A stretch of 64,000 bases of DNA from Athalassotoga saccharophila (GTDB taxonomy: Bacteria > Thermotogota > Thermotogae > Mesoaciditogales > Mesoaciditogaceae), in contig NZ_AP019551.1 in the NCBI RefSeq assembly GCF_009936215.1, positions 1,760,708 through 1,824,707 of the forward strand. The letters run 5' to 3'. Below the pieces are notes generated by a model that was not told the DNA's origin, searched no databases, and saw nothing but the letters and a program-made list of their open reading frames with translations. Of the stretch, positions 4,057-10,834 are shown piece by piece. The stretch's first letter is position 1, and the number at the start of each line of letters is the position of its first letter. The translations under genes and the position numbers were made by a program.

Positions 4057-7000
4057 CCTTCCTCCTCTTTCAAAGTTTTATCCTCAAGTACTATGTAGAG
4101 ATTTCCTACCTTAAAGATCACCCTGTGATCTTTCATATCCGAAATTCGGGGTATGTATGAATCAACCTCGGACGGATCCTTCAAATAAACATAAGTTTCA
4201 TTCGAAGAACTTACCAATCTCGATAGAATGATATTCCCGTTTTTGACGATGAACTCTCCCTCATAACTTTCTCCTTCCTTCAAAGGCCTATCGTAAGAAA
4301 AGGGAAGTTCATTTTTGCCATCCGTGGCAAAGATAAGGCCATCTTTTTCGAAGACCTGAAAGGTAACCCGTCCGTGGCCTCTTTCCATGACCTTTTCGAA
4401 GTCGTCCCCTTCTCTATCGAACAAAAGGTCAACGTATTGCCTTTGGAGTTTTATCTTTTCGGAAGGAGAATAATCTGGATAATTCTCGATGGGAGGCAAG
4501 GCTTTTCTTTCCTCGCTTCCGAATAACTGTTGCTGGATTATCTTAAGGCCGCCTTCGGAAAGATCCATAAGGCTTTCCATGTTATCTATAAGATACTTTC
4601 TATTCGGATCGGTTGAGTCGAAAGCGCCGCTTAACACGAGAATCTCGAGAGATTTAGAATTAACCCTTTTCTTCATTCTCGAGACAAAATCCAAAAAATT
4701 CTCGAACTTTCCACGTGTCCTTTCCTCCTCGATTATATGACCGAGATTTATTCCTATGCCTTTTATCGCGGCAAAACCCGTTCTCACATTTTTCCCGTCT
4801 GAATAGAAGAGAGTTTTAGATTCATTTATATCCGGCGGAAGGACCTTGACAGACAATCTTTCGAGTTCCCTTTTGTAAATTGACAATTTCGCCGGATCGG
4901 AGATATTCGAATTCATCAAAGATACCATGAAGTTGGCAGTCATTGTGGCCTTGAGATATGCAGTCCACGCGGTTATGTAGGCGTAAGCGACGCTGTGGGA
5001 TTTGTTGAATCCATAGGACGCAAAATTACTTATGTTATCAAAGAGTTTTAGCGCCATATTCTCGCTGTAGCCCTTTGAGATGGCGCCACTTACGAACTTT
5101 TCCTTCAAATCCTGCATGAGGGCGGGGTCCTTTTTCGATATGGCCTTTCTGAAAAGATCTGCCTGACTTTCGGAAAAACTCGCTATCTCCATCGCGATCT
5201 TCATAACCTGTTCTTGGTATATTATCATTCCATATGTCTCGCCGAGGATCTTATCGAGACCGAACTCGTCCTTCATGACAGATCCGCCATGGCGTCGTCT
5301 TATGTACTCGTCCGCTATTCCGGAATATATTGGACCGGGCCTGTTAAGGCTCAAAAGGGCAATTATATCGTCGAAATTCTGGGGGGCTAATTTTTTCGTC
5401 AGTGCGCTGGCCGAAGCGCTTTCAAGTTGAAAGATGCCGGCCGTATTTCCACTCTTGAGAATTTCGTATATTCCTTCATGATCGATGGGAATATTCATAA
5501 GGTCTTCTCTGTTTACCTTTCCACCGAGCGTTTCTTTTATATTCGTAAGTGTCTTTAGTCCGAGAAGATCTATTTTTGTTATCCTAAGATCCGCAAGAGA
5601 GTCCATGTCGAATTCAGTTATCCATCTCTTCCCGTCAAAGGTCATAGGAATAAGATTCGTAAGATCTCTGTCAGAGAGAACAACTCCGGCCGCATGGATC
5701 GTCCTGTGATGGATAAGTCCTTCGAGTTTTAGGGCATAATCGACGAGAACTTTTACATCTTCGCTTTTTGAAATTCTTCGGAATTCCTGATTCTCGTTGA
5801 TTGCCTTTTCGATAGAATCGTATCCCGATACCCTCCACGCAAGATCTTCTATGAGCCTTTCATTTACGCCCAAAGATTTCCCGGCAAGCCTTATGACGGC
5901 CCTCGATCCGAGAGTCCCATAAGATCCGACCTGGGCCAAATTGTTTGTCCCGTATTTTTGAGCAAGACCAAGGATAAGATCGTCTCTTGCACCGTCCTCG
6001 ACATCTATGTCTATGTCTGGATCTTCCATTCTTGACTCATTCAAAAATCTCTCAAAGATCAAATCATATTTTAGTGGATCTATCGTCGTGATTCCGAGAA
6101 GATACGCAACCAAAGAAGAAACAGAAGATCCCCTTCCGGGGCCTATTAGGATTCCGGCCTTTTGAGCGTAATCTATTATCTCGGAGACGGTAAGAAAGTA
6201 CCTGCAAAAGTTTTTGGATTCTATCAATTTCAATTCACGATCGAGCCGTTTTTTCCTATCTTCAGAAACCTTCGAAATCCTTCCTTTGAGCGTCTCGCAA
6301 TCTTTTTCCGAAGAAAAAGGCAATTTTATATCGACGGCGAGATCGTATTCCTCACATTTTTCGGATATTTCAACCGTATTATCAACGCTTTGTGGAAGAT
6401 CTCTAAAGATGACTTTCATCTCGCCGGCCGATTTTAAATAGTACTCATCGCTTCCGTAGGCAACATTTCCGTCCCATTTCATGTTCCTGTTCATCGAGAC
6501 AAAAAGGCCGTGGGCGAGGGCATCTGCCTTTTTCAAGAAATGCACATCGTTTGTCGCGACGATCTTTATCTTAAGACTTTGCGCTATATCAACGAGTGTA
6601 TTGTTAAGCGCGATTTGATCCTTAAGGCCGGTTCTCATTAACTCTATGTAAAAATCCTCTCCAAATCTTTCCCTGTAAGCGCGGGCAACCTCTTTTGCCC
6701 TCTCGATCTCGCCGTTAAGAATGAGGCGTGGTATTTTCCCGCTCATACAACCAGAAAGAACGATGACATCTTTCAACTCGAAGATATCTTTATCATCGAG
6801 AACCTTTGAATTTGCAAGGTTAAGGGCTTTTACAAGAGAAAGATAGCCATCTTTGTTTTTGGCAAGGACTGTAAGGTGGTTCCTCGTCTTTTCGTCTTTC
6901 ACGTAAAGTTCGCATCCTATAACAGGCTTTATTCCGTATTTTCGAGCCGCGGACCAGAATTTGTGCACTCCACCCATTGTACCGTGATCCGTTATGGCCA

Positions 7001-7316: not shown

Positions 7317-8030
7317 ATGGCCCTCGTAAGTGTCAGAAATTTGAAAAAAATTTACAAAAGCGGCGATCTTTCGTACGAAGCCTTAAAGGGCATGACCTTT
7401 GAAATAGAGATGGGAGATCTCTTTTTCATCTACGGTCCTTCGGGAAGTGGAAAGACGACATTGCTCAATTGCATGTCTGGAATAGACGATGCAACCTCTG
7501 GAGAGATAATAATAAAAAATGTGGATCTCTCAAAATTGCCTGACGATAAAAAGACCGCATTCAGGGCCGAAAACATGGGATTTGTCTTTCAGGAATACAA
7601 CCTTATAAATGTGCTCACTGTCAAAGAGAACGTTGCCCTTCCATTGCTCGCGCGCGGATGGCCGGAGAAGAAGGCAAACCAAAAGGCCATAGATGTCCTG
7701 AAAGAAAATGGCCTTTTGCACGTCGTAGACAAATTTCCATCCCAAATAAGCGGTGGAGAAAGGCAAAGAGTGGCCGTCGCAAGGGCAATTGCCGGAGAGC
7801 CGATGATAGTCTGGGCAGATGAGCCGACCGGCGCTCTCGATACGAAGACATCCTTTATGGTTATGGATTTCATAAAATTCTTAAATGAAAAAAACAAACA
7901 GACCTTCGTAATAGTTAGCCACGACGAGAAGATACTCAAATATGCCACGGCCTACATAAGAATAGACAGTGGAAGAATAGAGAGTTTTGAAAGAATAAGA
8001 ATGCCATTCGAAAAAGTAAAAGAGTTATAA
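7317..8030 (+). CDS. ABC transporter ATP-binding protein, LolD/MacB-like
   Basis: A 237-aa nucleotide-binding subunit of the LolD/MacB/FtsE class. It shows Walker A GPSGSGKTT (about residues 40-48), the Q-loop VFQEYNL, the signature SGGERQRVAVARA, Walker B IVWADEP and the switch histidine in VIVSHD. The class typically pairs with a MacB- or FtsX-like permease that works on lipoproteins, peptides or drugs from the membrane. No permease gene adjoins it; the next gene converges from the other strand and it ends in a shared terminator. It is therefore either monocistronic with a partner elsewhere or a remnant of a larger locus. The substrate cannot be inferred. Confidence 0.9.
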   Translation: MALVSVRNLKKIYKSGDLSYEALKGMTFEIEMGDLFFIYGPSGSGKTTLLNCMSGIDDATSGEIIIKNVDLSKLPDDKKTAFRAENMGFVFQEYNLINVLTVKENVALPLLARGWPEKKANQKAIDVLKENGLLHVVDKFPSQISGGERQRVAVARAIAGEPMIVWADEPTGALDTKTSFMVMDFIKFLNEKNKQTFVIVSHDEKILKYATAYIRIDSGRIESFERIRMPFEKVKEL

Positions 8031-8052
8031 ATCAGGCCTTACGGCCTGATTT
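8029..8052. terminator. Bidirectional intrinsic terminator
   Basis: AAATCAGGCC (8029-8038), loop TTAC, GGCCTGATTT (8043-8052), followed by T residues on the plus strand and preceded by A residues that serve the minus strand. It separates the ABC ATPase from the convergent livJ-like gene, whose stop codon is at 8054-8056. Confidence 0.88.
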
Positions 8053-8053
8053 T

Positions 8054-9157
8054 TTAAGGATTTATAGTTGTTACGTACGTGAATTGACCATTTACGACCT
8101 CATTTACAACTGCGGATTTTATAGCATTTCCACTTGAATCTATCGTTATATATCCTGTAACGCCTTCAAAATCCTTTGTGCTTCTTATCGCCTGATTTAT
8201 CTTTGCAGGATCGGTCGAATTTGCCCTTTCGATTGCATTGACCAAAACGGCGTAGGCATCAAATCCAAGGGCAGCGAAGGCCGAAGGAAGGGTTTTGTAC
8301 ATCTCCTGGTACTTTTTGACGAATTCCTTTCCCAGTTCTGTCGACGGGTGCTCTGCGTTAAAACTTGTCGTGTAATAAAGACCGTTGACGGCGCTACCGC
8401 CTATCGTCACAAGTTGGGGAGCCTCTGCTCCATCGCCGGCAAGTAATGCACCTGTATATCCGAGTTGTCTTGCCTGACGTGCTATGAGTGCTATTTCGGG
8501 ATAATATCCGGGGATGTAAAGCAAATCTGGATGGTGGCTTAGCGCGTCGGTAAGTTGAGCGGTAAAGTCCTGATCTCCCGACTGGTAATACTCTTTGTAG
8601 ATCTTTCCTCCACCATTTGTGAAGTCTTTGACGAAGAAATTGGTAAGACCGACGCTGTAATCCTGGGCCACATCCGTAAAGACCACGGCCGTTTTGGCCT
8701 TGAGGTAATTAAGGGAAAAGACTGCCGCCACATGGCCCTGGAAGGGATCGATAAAGCACACCCTCGATATGTACTGCTTTCCTTGGGTAACAAGCGGATC
8801 GGTAGATGTCGGTGAAAGCATCGGCACATGGGCCTTTTCGGCTATCGATCCTCCTGCCATCGTGTTCGAACTTGCGAGTTCTCCTATTATGGCGACAACG
8901 TTGTTAAGAGAGATAAGCCTGCTGACGACATTTGCCGCTTCAGTTTTGTCAGATCTGTTGTCTGCAAGGATCAAATCAACCTTTTGACCCAAAACTGTTG
9001 GAAAGAATTGCTGGGCCAAAAGTACTCCCTCGTAAGTTTGCTGGCCGAATGCGGAAATTCCTCCCGTCATAGGAAAGGCAACCCCTATCTTTATATCCCC
9101 TCCCATCACAACCAAAGCGAAAAGTGTTAGTACGAGAAACACAAAAACCTTCTTCAT
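8054..9157 (-). CDS. livJ: Branched-chain amino acid ABC transporter binding protein
   Basis: A periplasmic-binding-fold protein of the LivJ/LivK family, 367 aa. A signal peptide is clear (MKK followed by a run of Phe/Val/Leu, cleavage near residues 18-20), then the typical first strand IKIGVAFPMTGG. Later features fit type I Leu/Ile/Val receptors: VDLILADNRSDKTEAANV, the SPTSTDP ligand loop and GFDAYAVLVNAIERA. The start at 9157 is chosen for its AGGAGG and because it begins the signal peptide; the 11 upstream codons are discarded. No LivHMGF permease genes are adjacent. Upstream lies a leader peptide rich in Val/Ile codons and a terminator hairpin, which supports a branched-chain amino-acid role independently of homology. 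Confidence 0.92.
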   Translation of the reverse strand: MKKVFVFLVLTLFALVVMGGDIKIGVAFPMTGGISAFGQQTYEGVLLAQQFFPTVLGQKVDLILADNRSDKTEAANVVSRLISLNNVVAIIGELASSNTMAGGSIAEKAHVPMLSPTSTDPLVTQGKQYISRVCFIDPFQGHVAAVFSLNYLKAKTAVVFTDVAQDYSVGLTNFFVKDFTNGGGKIYKEYYQSGDQDFTAQLTDALSHHPDLLYIPGYYPEIALIARQARQLGYTGALLAGDGAEAPQLVTIGGSAVNGLYYTTSFNAEHPSTELGKEFVKKYQEMYKTLPSAFAALGFDAYAVLVNAIERANSTDPAKINQAIRSTKDFEGVTGYITIDSSGNAIKSAVVNEVVNGQFTYVTTINP

Positions 9158-9180
9158 CTTCAAATCCCTCCTTTGAAATA

Positions 9181-9228
9181 AAAAAGCCACGCTAAAAGCG
9201 TGGCCTGACCGGTTTAGACAGTCAGGCC
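9181..9228 (-). promoter_or_regulatory. Candidate attenuator: two overlapping hairpins before livJ
   Basis: On the minus strand, hairpin 1 pairs GGCCTGAC (9228-9221) with GTCAGGCC (9209-9202). Hairpin 2 pairs GCCACGC (9204-9198) with GCGTGGC (9192-9186) and is followed by TTTTTTAT, a proper intrinsic terminator located before the livJ ribosome site. The arms share three bases, so they compete. The stop codon of the leader ORF lies inside the first arm of hairpin 1. A ribosome finishing the leader would block hairpin 1 and favour termination; one stalled at the Val codons would let hairpin 1 form. The mechanism is inferred; the hairpins and leader are seen directly. Confidence 0.7.
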
Positions 9229-9263
9229 ATCTTTATTATCACCACCATTTTATTTGAATTCAT
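9222..9263 (-). CDS. Leader peptide with Val-Val-Ile-Ile codons
   Basis: A 13-codon ORF, MNSNKMVVIIKMA, starting 30 bases after the predicted transcription start and preceded by GTGAGGAG. GTG GTG ATA ATA sit in the middle, and the stop codon lies in the first arm of the antiterminator-like hairpin. It sits directly upstream of a branched-chain amino-acid binding protein, as expected of an attenuation leader sensing charged tRNA-Val and tRNA-Ile. Confidence 0.7.
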   Translation of the reverse strand: MNSNKMVVIIKMA

Positions 9264-9299
9264 CTTTATTCTCCTCACTCTTATAATTTGATTTCCAAA

Positions 9300-9328
9300 A
9301 TTTTAACATTTAACAATTTTGAAGTCAA
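9300..9328 (-). promoter_or_regulatory. Sigma-70 type promoter of livJ leader
   Basis: On the minus strand TTGACT (complement of 9323-9328), a 17-base spacer and TAAAAT (complement of 9300-9305). The predicted start near 9293 gives a leader RNA that includes the short peptide and both hairpins. Confidence 0.7.
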
Positions 9329-9410
9329 TTAAAAACTCATTAAGGATGTTAAAAGCGATTTAAGAATCACAGACGAATAACTTTCATTCCCTATTTGCCA
9401 TTCGCCAGAT

Positions 9411-9437
9411 TAAAGTTTTAAAAAATTATGCCGATAA
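9411..9437 (+). promoter_or_regulatory. Sigma-28 (FliA) promoter of flagellin
   Basis: TAAA (9411-9414), 15-base spacer, GCCGATAA (9430-9437), an exact match to the flagellar sigma-28 consensus. The -10 element starts a dyad, CCGATAATTAGATCGG, that recurs in nearly the same form at the flaG promoter. Confidence 0.92.
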
Positions 9438-9496
9438 TTAGATCGGATTCCGGAATCCAAACAAGGAAGTAAAAAAGATCACATGGAGGTGGATTT

Positions 9497-10834
9497 ATGC
9501 AGATTAACCAGAATATCCCTGCCCTTCAGGCATGGATGGCTGTGAATAACACGAATAACGCGCTACAGACGACAGTCCAGAGATTGTCCACAGGCTACAG
9601 GATAAACAGCGCGGCAGACGACGCCGCGGGATACGCGATAACCGAAAAGATGCTCGGCCAAATAAATGGCCTCAACACCGCGATTCAAAACTCCCAGAAT
9701 GCCATAAGTTTGATTCAGACCGCATCGGGAGCGTTAACGCAGGATCAGGCAATTTTACAAAGAATGAGAGAACTCGCAGTCGAGGCAGCAAACGACACGA
9801 ACACGACCTCTGATAGACAGCAAATCCAGCAGGAAATGAACCAACTCGTCAAACAGATCGACCAGATAAGGAATACAACCCAGTTCAACACTCAGGTACT
9901 TCTGAACGGAAACCTCAACTACACAGGCGCATCCGGTACGGCAACGCTTGTAAATCCTTCAAGTAACATCGTTTCAGCAACGATATCGGGGTCTGGATCA
10001 AGCAGAGCCGTTAATGTAACGACAACGCTTACCATAAACACGATAACAACCGGAACGGCAAGCGCTCCAAACGCGGTCCAGGTCTATTATAATGGACAAC
10101 TTCTTAATCTCTCTACATCAGCGGCAAACAACCATTCTGCTGGTGCTTATATAACAAGCATAAATTCTAACGAAGTAACGGTCTACATTTCTGGCTCAGG
10201 ACATGCAACCACAGTAGGCATTTCTTTACAAAATATGGGAACTCTTTCTGGTTCAGGAGTTTATACCTCTGCATCGACGGCCGCTTACAGCGTTGTCAAC
10301 ACCGGCGCGGTAAGGCTCGATGCTGCCAACGATCCAACTGGAAAATTAAACCCTGCGAATATGGAACTCGTCTTCCAGGTCGGAGCCAACCAGTCACAGA
10401 CAGTCTCTCTCGGCCTTAACGATATGGGCGCTCAGGCTCTCGGACTTGAATCAACGACACCATCTACAACATTCGATGCACAGGCTGCGACGAACACAAA
10501 CCTTGGAAATGGTTTCTACTCGACAATAGACGTGACAACCCAGGCCGGTGCACAGGCTGCGATCTCCATAATAGACAACGCAAACCAGGTCGTCTCGACA
10601 GAGGCCGCAAAACTCGGTGCGTTGCAAAACAGAATAACTGACATCACGAATAACCTCCAGACCTCATCGACAAACCTCACATCGGCCGAAGGTACTATAA
10701 AGGATGCGGACATGGCGAAGGAACTCATGACTTACTCAAAGCAGCAGATACTCTTGCAATCTTCGATGGCAATGCTTGGCCAGGCCAATGCCAACCCGCA
10801 GCAGATATTGAGACTTTTTACGAACCTTCCATAA
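9497..10834 (+). CDS. fliC: Flagellin
   Basis: The filament subunit, 445 aa. The N-terminal D0/D1 helices are canonical (INQNIPALQAW, LSTGYRINSAADDAAG, RMRELAVEAAND), and so is the C-terminal D1/D0 (LGALQNRI, SAEGTIKDADMAKE, ending near LFTNLP). The middle, about residues 145-330, is a Ser/Thr/Gly/Asn-rich variable domain with no recognisable enzyme motif, of moderate length for a flagellin. A GGAGGTG ribosome site precedes the ATG. It is monocistronic, with a perfect sigma-28 promoter and a following terminator, so it is expected to be a late class gene. The filament cap and FlaG genes lie 6 kb away on the other strand. Confidence 0.97.
   Translation: MQINQNIPALQAWMAVNNTNNALQTTVQRLSTGYRINSAADDAAGYAITEKMLGQINGLNTAIQNSQNAISLIQTASGALTQDQAILQRMRELAVEAANDTNTTSDRQQIQQEMNQLVKQIDQIRNTTQFNTQVLLNGNLNYTGASGTATLVNPSSNIVSATISGSGSSRAVNVTTTLTINTITTGTASAPNAVQVYYNGQLLNLSTSAANNHSAGAYITSINSNEVTVYISGSGHATTVGISLQNMGTLSGSGVYTSASTAAYSVVNTGAVRLDAANDPTGKLNPANMELVFQVGANQSQTVSLGLNDMGAQALGLESTTPSTTFDAQAATNTNLGNGFYSTIDVTTQAGAQAAISIIDNANQVVSTEAAKLGALQNRITDITNNLQTSSTNLTSAEGTIKDADMAKELMTYSKQQILLQSSMAMLGQANANPQQILRLFTNLP

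Follow-up and report, generated by a model that had tools for sequence, protein, structure and literature searches.

The livJ locus and its leader

The DNA analyzed here, a window of 64,000 nucleotides, comes from Athalassotoga saccharophila NAS-01, a bacterium in culture whose source is a hot spring. The genome is closed, with 2,044,999 bases in three circular contigs, of which the chromosome takes up 1,957,762 bases, and the strain grows at 55 °C and pH 6.0 (PMC7163026). On the minus strand of the window lies a livJ gene whose product is predicted to be a periplasmic branched-chain amino-acid binding protein and which the leader described below would control. The earlier note had called this gene an orphan, and its surroundings agree: the neighbors are a convergent ABC ATPase gene and a divergent flagellin gene (plus strand, from 9497 onward), and the real livJHMGF operon, whose livJ is 75% identical to that of the window, is located elsewhere in the genome. 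The leader lies between the flagellin gene and livJ and consists of the following features, listed with livJ itself in the order of transcription.

9300–9328, minus strand: promoter, TTGACT (9328–9323), 17-nt spacer and extended −10 element TGtTAAAAT ending at 9300
9271–9275, minus strand: Shine-Dalgarno sequence AGGAG of the leader ORF, recognized from the sequence, 7 nt 5' of the leader ATG
9222–9263, minus strand: predicted leader ORF MNSNKMVVIIKMA, 13 codons plus TGA, ATG at 9263–9261
9201–9229, minus strand: hairpin 1, the putative antiterminator, arms 9229–9219 and 9211–9201, from folds, scan and covariation
9180–9206, minus strand: intrinsic terminator with U-tract, stem 9206–9184, from scan and covariation
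about 9166–9174, minus strand: livJ Shine-Dalgarno sequence AAAGGAGGG, recognized from the sequence, livJ ATG at 9157
8054–9157, minus strand: orphan livJ, 367 aa, Pfam PF13458 (E 3.6e-48)

The codons GTG GTG ATA ATA of the leader ORF occupy 9245–9234, with the putative sensing codons GTG GTG ATA at 9245–9237, and the TGA (9224–9222) sits inside the 5' arm of hairpin 1. A TTGACT-17-TAAAAT promoter upstream of the ORF, the 13-codon ORF with these four codons, a first hairpin whose arm holds the stop codon and a second hairpin acting as intrinsic terminator had all been proposed, and all are present on the minus strand, at the coordinates given. The overlap of the hairpins had been put at three bases and is actually six (AGGCCA, 9206–9201); the competition expected from it turns on the GCC/GGC pairs of the terminator foot. 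The promoter has 10 of 12 matches and is the sole promoter-like site in 8000–9600. Because this only match lies upstream of the leader and the gap between the terminator and the livJ ATG is about 23 nt, it is improbable that a livJ transcript begins beyond the leader.

Related leaders within Athalassotoga

LivJ homologues are present in 50 of the 61 genomes searched, two of them in the A. saccharophila genome. Among the livJ upstream regions, a leader of this type was found only at the window livJ and at an 84%-identical livJ in another genome of the genus (G002), where the leader peptide reads VFKKILLENLVVIINMA and both the VVII core and the stop context are kept. The string GTGGTGATAATAAA[G/C]ATGGCCTGAC is identical in the two leaders, and the ORF start, the loop and the surroundings have diverged; a search of the 61 genomes with this string, allowing up to three mismatches, returned only those two livJ sites. 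Inheritance of the leader together with the livJHMGF operon was considered and rejected, the operon livJ being without such a leader in every family genome examined. The livJ leader itself is documented in two genomes only, a weakness of the attenuator reading. In a third genome of the genus (G003), a broken livJ interrupted by stops lies close to the end of a contig (L045, about 6091–6641, minus strand) and is possibly the remnant of an orphan livJ.

A weak DNA match to the livJ leader promoter led us to a second site in the A. saccharophila genome, before a dppB-type permease gene. This dpp cassette has the same promoter, a leader peptide MTLTMYFKQFVILKT, a hairpin and a terminator, and it occurs in all four genus members, the other leader peptides being MTLTIDFKQFVILKKKT (G003), MITDNVFKKFVVINTKA (G002) and MRKNSFWKLVMIRSKT (G001). 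Downstream of it lie genes for dppB, an oligopeptide ATPase, a family-5 solute-binding protein and OppC, and the cluster further contains two amidohydrolases, another binding protein and an amino-acid permease. In other genera of the same family, dppB is present and this leader is absent. The cores of the four dpp leaders are V-I-L, V-I-L, V-V-I and V-M-I; aligned with the two livJ leaders (n = 6), they give the core V-[VIM]-[IL], with all changes at codon position 1 or 3. Leader codons not conserved as Val, Ile or Leu in relatives would, according to the earlier note, have refuted the attenuator; the alignment shows them conserved, with one Met. An SD-like sequence and a start codon were found for all six predicted leader ORFs (two livJ, four dpp). 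Since the six sequences are homologous, the codon evidence among them is not independent, and by our own estimate random changes in the leader core would keep an aliphatic residue about two-thirds of the time.

The promoter is nearly invariant over 33 bp in the six leaders. Its −35/−10 spacer contains a direct repeat, TGTTAA-rTGTTAA (9322–9306 in the window; 11918–11934 in L040 at the dpp site), also nearly invariant, which may bind a regulator or be left over from duplication. The promoter pattern with the TGTTAA repeat occurs at just two sites in the A. saccharophila genome, livJ and dpp. A covariance model of the leader retrieved exactly the six genus sites and nothing convincing elsewhere among the 61 genomes, and both sites in the A. 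saccharophila genome precede uptake genes. Matches of the model in other families at E 0.3–0.9 were taken as chance. One match at E 0.02, in G006, is a separate leader before an aspartokinase gene and not a clear relative; it has its own leader peptide MTKKTSCIDFISFNKKQVKYSPGGRANA, a CCCGGTGGA hairpin and a GGGCCACATC terminator (L096, about 1655–1490, minus strand) and is likely another attenuator in the family.

Both helices were proposed by RNAalifold on the six leaders. Across the alignment, 98.9% of the cells are paired and six pairs have both sides changed. The covariation score was reached by none of 500 shuffles, and the signal was lost when the partners were slid. This covariation of both helices supports the structure rather than proving it, six related sequences being few. 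The same alignment bears on a riboswitch or protein-binding RNA switch, in which an amino acid or a regulator would bind the leader RNA directly and the short ORF would be incidental. Such a switch would fit the well-conserved promoter spacer and helices, and uncharacterized livJ-associated RNAs have been proposed as riboswitches in Streptomyces (PMC11109978), whereas here hairpin 1 is a simple stem, its loop varies in both length and sequence, and the codons are the sole conserved unpaired core. That unpaired stretch has T at each second codon position and reads V-[VIM]-[IL], and an Rfam scan of the window matched tRNA only, with no T-box and no amino-acid leader family at the gathering score. 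We regard a switch of this kind as improbable.

The arrangement itself was set against chance with an unsupervised, codon-blind scan for a terminator whose 5' arm has three or more bases in common with an upstream hairpin, combined with an SD-preceded ORF of 8–40 codons ending at the upstream hairpin. The window gave one match, the livJ leader, and 100 dinucleotide-preserving shuffles gave none. Applied to the fetched loci, which amount to about 456 kb when overlaps are included, the same scan returned only the livJ/dpp leader family and one Kosmotoga-type leader. Folding energy by itself is unremarkable for the livJ leader, and about 5% of random short ORFs contain four I/L/V codons in a row. 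Given these runs and a modest folding z-score (only −2.2), it is the arrangement and its conservation that carry weight, not the codons alone.

Other candidate attenuators came up alongside. On the minus strand of the window, at 38004–37924, there is a leader ORF, MSKFLNLISKINNNNNNNSIGIGRLG, that includes seven Asn codons; it is accompanied by hairpins that fold strongly (z −5.1) and by a terminator-like stem, followed by a 302-aa ORF at 37847–36939, presumably a relative of AsnA/asparaginyl-tRNA synthetase. The Asn attenuator mentioned in the earlier note appears on these features to be real, and together with the branched-chain attenuator proposed for dpp it lends support to the idea, raised there, that this organism makes general use of attenuation for amino-acid control. 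In two Kosmotoga-type genomes (G035 and G021), LivJ-family genes are preceded by a leader with hairpins, located at about 2772–2627 of L036 (minus strand) and about 1330–1480 of L039 (plus strand). Its peptide has FVMNMYWYIFGR conserved, encoded by Tyr, Trp, Tyr, Ile and Phe codons, and the leader suggests an aromatic-type attenuator on a LivJ homologue.

Stall geometry and the proposed switch

We modeled the consequence of a stalled ribosome by partition-function folding of the free RNA beyond the ribosome footprint, which was assumed to cover 15 nt, beginning with the first base of the codon in the P site (and so reaching 14 nt past it). For the window copy, the probability that the terminator foot forms was 0.26 when the A site held the first Val codon, 0.27 when it held the second and 0.69 when it held the first Ile, and it was 1.00 once the ribosome had advanced to the second Ile or further, the stop included. 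A temperature of 55 °C alters this geometry little, and the livJ and dpp leaders of G002 behave like the window copy. In the model, a stall on either Val clearly favors the antiterminator and a stall on the first Ile is intermediate, and the fourth codon (Ile in livJ; Lys, Asn or Arg in dpp) lies too near the hairpin to act as a signal. The proposal that the Val/Ile codons are the signal is consequently narrowed by the modeled geometry: it stands for the two Val codons and in part for the first Ile, and the second Ile drops out.

Antiterminator and terminator are mutually exclusive in the window livJ, G002 livJ and G002 dpp leaders, and this exclusion is weak in the other dpp copies. In the dpp leaders of A. 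saccharophila, G001 and G003, an A·C mismatch weakens hairpin 1, and at equilibrium the terminator is modeled even with a stall at the sensing codons; these copies may need kinetic control, or they may be weak switches. Such behavior would suit a partial terminator of constant strength, accompanied by a small ORF whose translation sets a constant read-through or helps supply ribosomes to livJ, with no amino-acid response, as would the near-equal energies of the two hairpins, from which partial read-through is expected in the absence of any signal. A terminator of this kind leaves unexplained why aliphatic codons are kept at one distance from the hairpin, why the stop codon of the livJ pair is kept within the hairpin arm, and why the codons match the transported substrate, and we hold it to be as improbable as a riboswitch. 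Least probable of all, a transcription factor acting at the shared promoter through the TGTTAA spacer repeat, with the leader minor or decaying, would account for the almost invariant spacer and the two-site restriction of the full promoter pattern, but the leader ORF and helices are kept via compensated substitutions, unlike a decaying part, the shared promoter may merely reflect duplication of the cassette, and such a factor and attenuation do not exclude each other.

As the earlier note had proposed, the leader is, in our judgment, very probably a ribosome-mediated branched-chain amino-acid attenuator on livJ. From its anatomy and conservation, the helix covariation, the modeled geometry and, as described below, the absence of ilv biosynthesis genes, we infer ribosome stalling, termination in vivo and a response to amino acids, as follows. 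RNA polymerase would start near 9293, and a ribosome would then initiate the leader ORF. With ample amino acids, the ribosome would reach the TGA and cover the 5' arm of hairpin 1, so that the terminator folds and stops transcription near 9180. A shortage of Val, or to a lesser degree of Ile, would stall the ribosome at GTG GTG ATA; hairpin 1 would then remain and take the GCC of the terminator foot, and livJ would be transcribed. Hairpin 1 should also form in an untranslated leader, which by fold alone would make ON the default state, and no stable upstream hairpin that could serve as an extra pause/protector (1:2) hairpin was seen in the folds of either livJ leader. The homologous cassette would control the dppB-type peptide-uptake cluster of the same genome.

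Uptake targets and comparison with known systems

No match over the cut-off was found for AHAS (ilvB), IlvC or IlvD in the A. saccharophila genome or in G001–G005, and ilvB, ilvC and ilvD are present in 14 of 14 control genomes. Because the A. saccharophila genome is closed, this absence is not an assembly gap. From its gene content, the host is predicted to require an outside supply of branched-chain amino acids or peptides, and its cells seem wholly dependent on imported branched-chain amino acids. Both cassette targets, livJ and the dppB-type cluster, serve uptake, and the absence of the biosynthetic genes ilvB, ilvC and ilvD would explain why the attenuator sits on uptake genes, a placement that the earlier note had called less common. 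We lean, with some reserve, toward a history in which a cassette of ~150 bp was duplicated within Athalassotoga to form a small regulon, free of a trans-acting regulator, over a branched-chain binding protein and peptide uptake, in a host that appears unable to synthesize these amino acids, an untranslated leader being read through by default. An attenuator that a binding-protein gene and a peptide-uptake cluster share through copying would be a testable case of a cis-acting regulon arising by duplication, and it would extend peptide-leader attenuation to the uptake genes of a deep-branching Thermotogota lineage. Our literature search, a weak one with most subscription journals outside it, found no peptide-leader attenuator described for livJ or for Thermotogota.

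For the liv genes of E. coli, Oxender and co-workers reportedly proposed premature termination at livJ linked to leucine supply. That termination is said to be Rho-linked and is not known to rest on a leader peptide with an intrinsic terminator. The tie between termination and leucine supply is a likeness to the Athalassotoga livJ leader, and the link to Rho is a difference.

Regulation of amino-acid transport by a leader RNA is known from Lactococcus, where the methionine transporter of an auxotroph is under riboswitch control (PMC7058034). The T-boxes of Firmicutes resemble the mechanism proposed here in sensing uncharged tRNA and in controlling transport genes by antitermination, but they bind the tRNA directly through a long structured leader. 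We take the Lactococcus riboswitch to be a T-box. In a 2008 survey, T-boxes numbered none in Fusobacteria/Thermotogae (PMC2494555). The Streptomyces livJ motif (SRC-36-2), a candidate riboswitch, likewise precedes genes for binding proteins of the LivJ type (PMC11109978); it differs in that ligand binding would act on the Shine-Dalgarno sequence, and neither a leader peptide with its stop in a hairpin nor a terminator is described for it.

Closer in layout are the attenuators predicted by comparative analysis in Actinobacteria for trp and leuS, with candidate leaders for ilvB (PMC1262725). Likened by description only, they share with the Athalassotoga case a leader peptide followed by antiterminator and terminator hairpins, and they differ in belonging to another phylum and in having biosynthetic or tRNA-synthetase targets. 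The ilv and leu attenuators of enteric bacteria control biosynthesis and have an extra pause/protector hairpin that causes termination when the leader is untranslated. Branched-chain-rich leader peptides are found there before ilvGMEDA, ilvB and leuABCD (PMC6123439). The Athalassotoga leader resembles them in its branched-chain codons and in a choice between antiterminator and terminator that would be coupled to translation, whereas it has two hairpins only, would be ON by default and precedes uptake genes. The type of switch is known; its targets, uptake rather than synthesis genes, are unusual.
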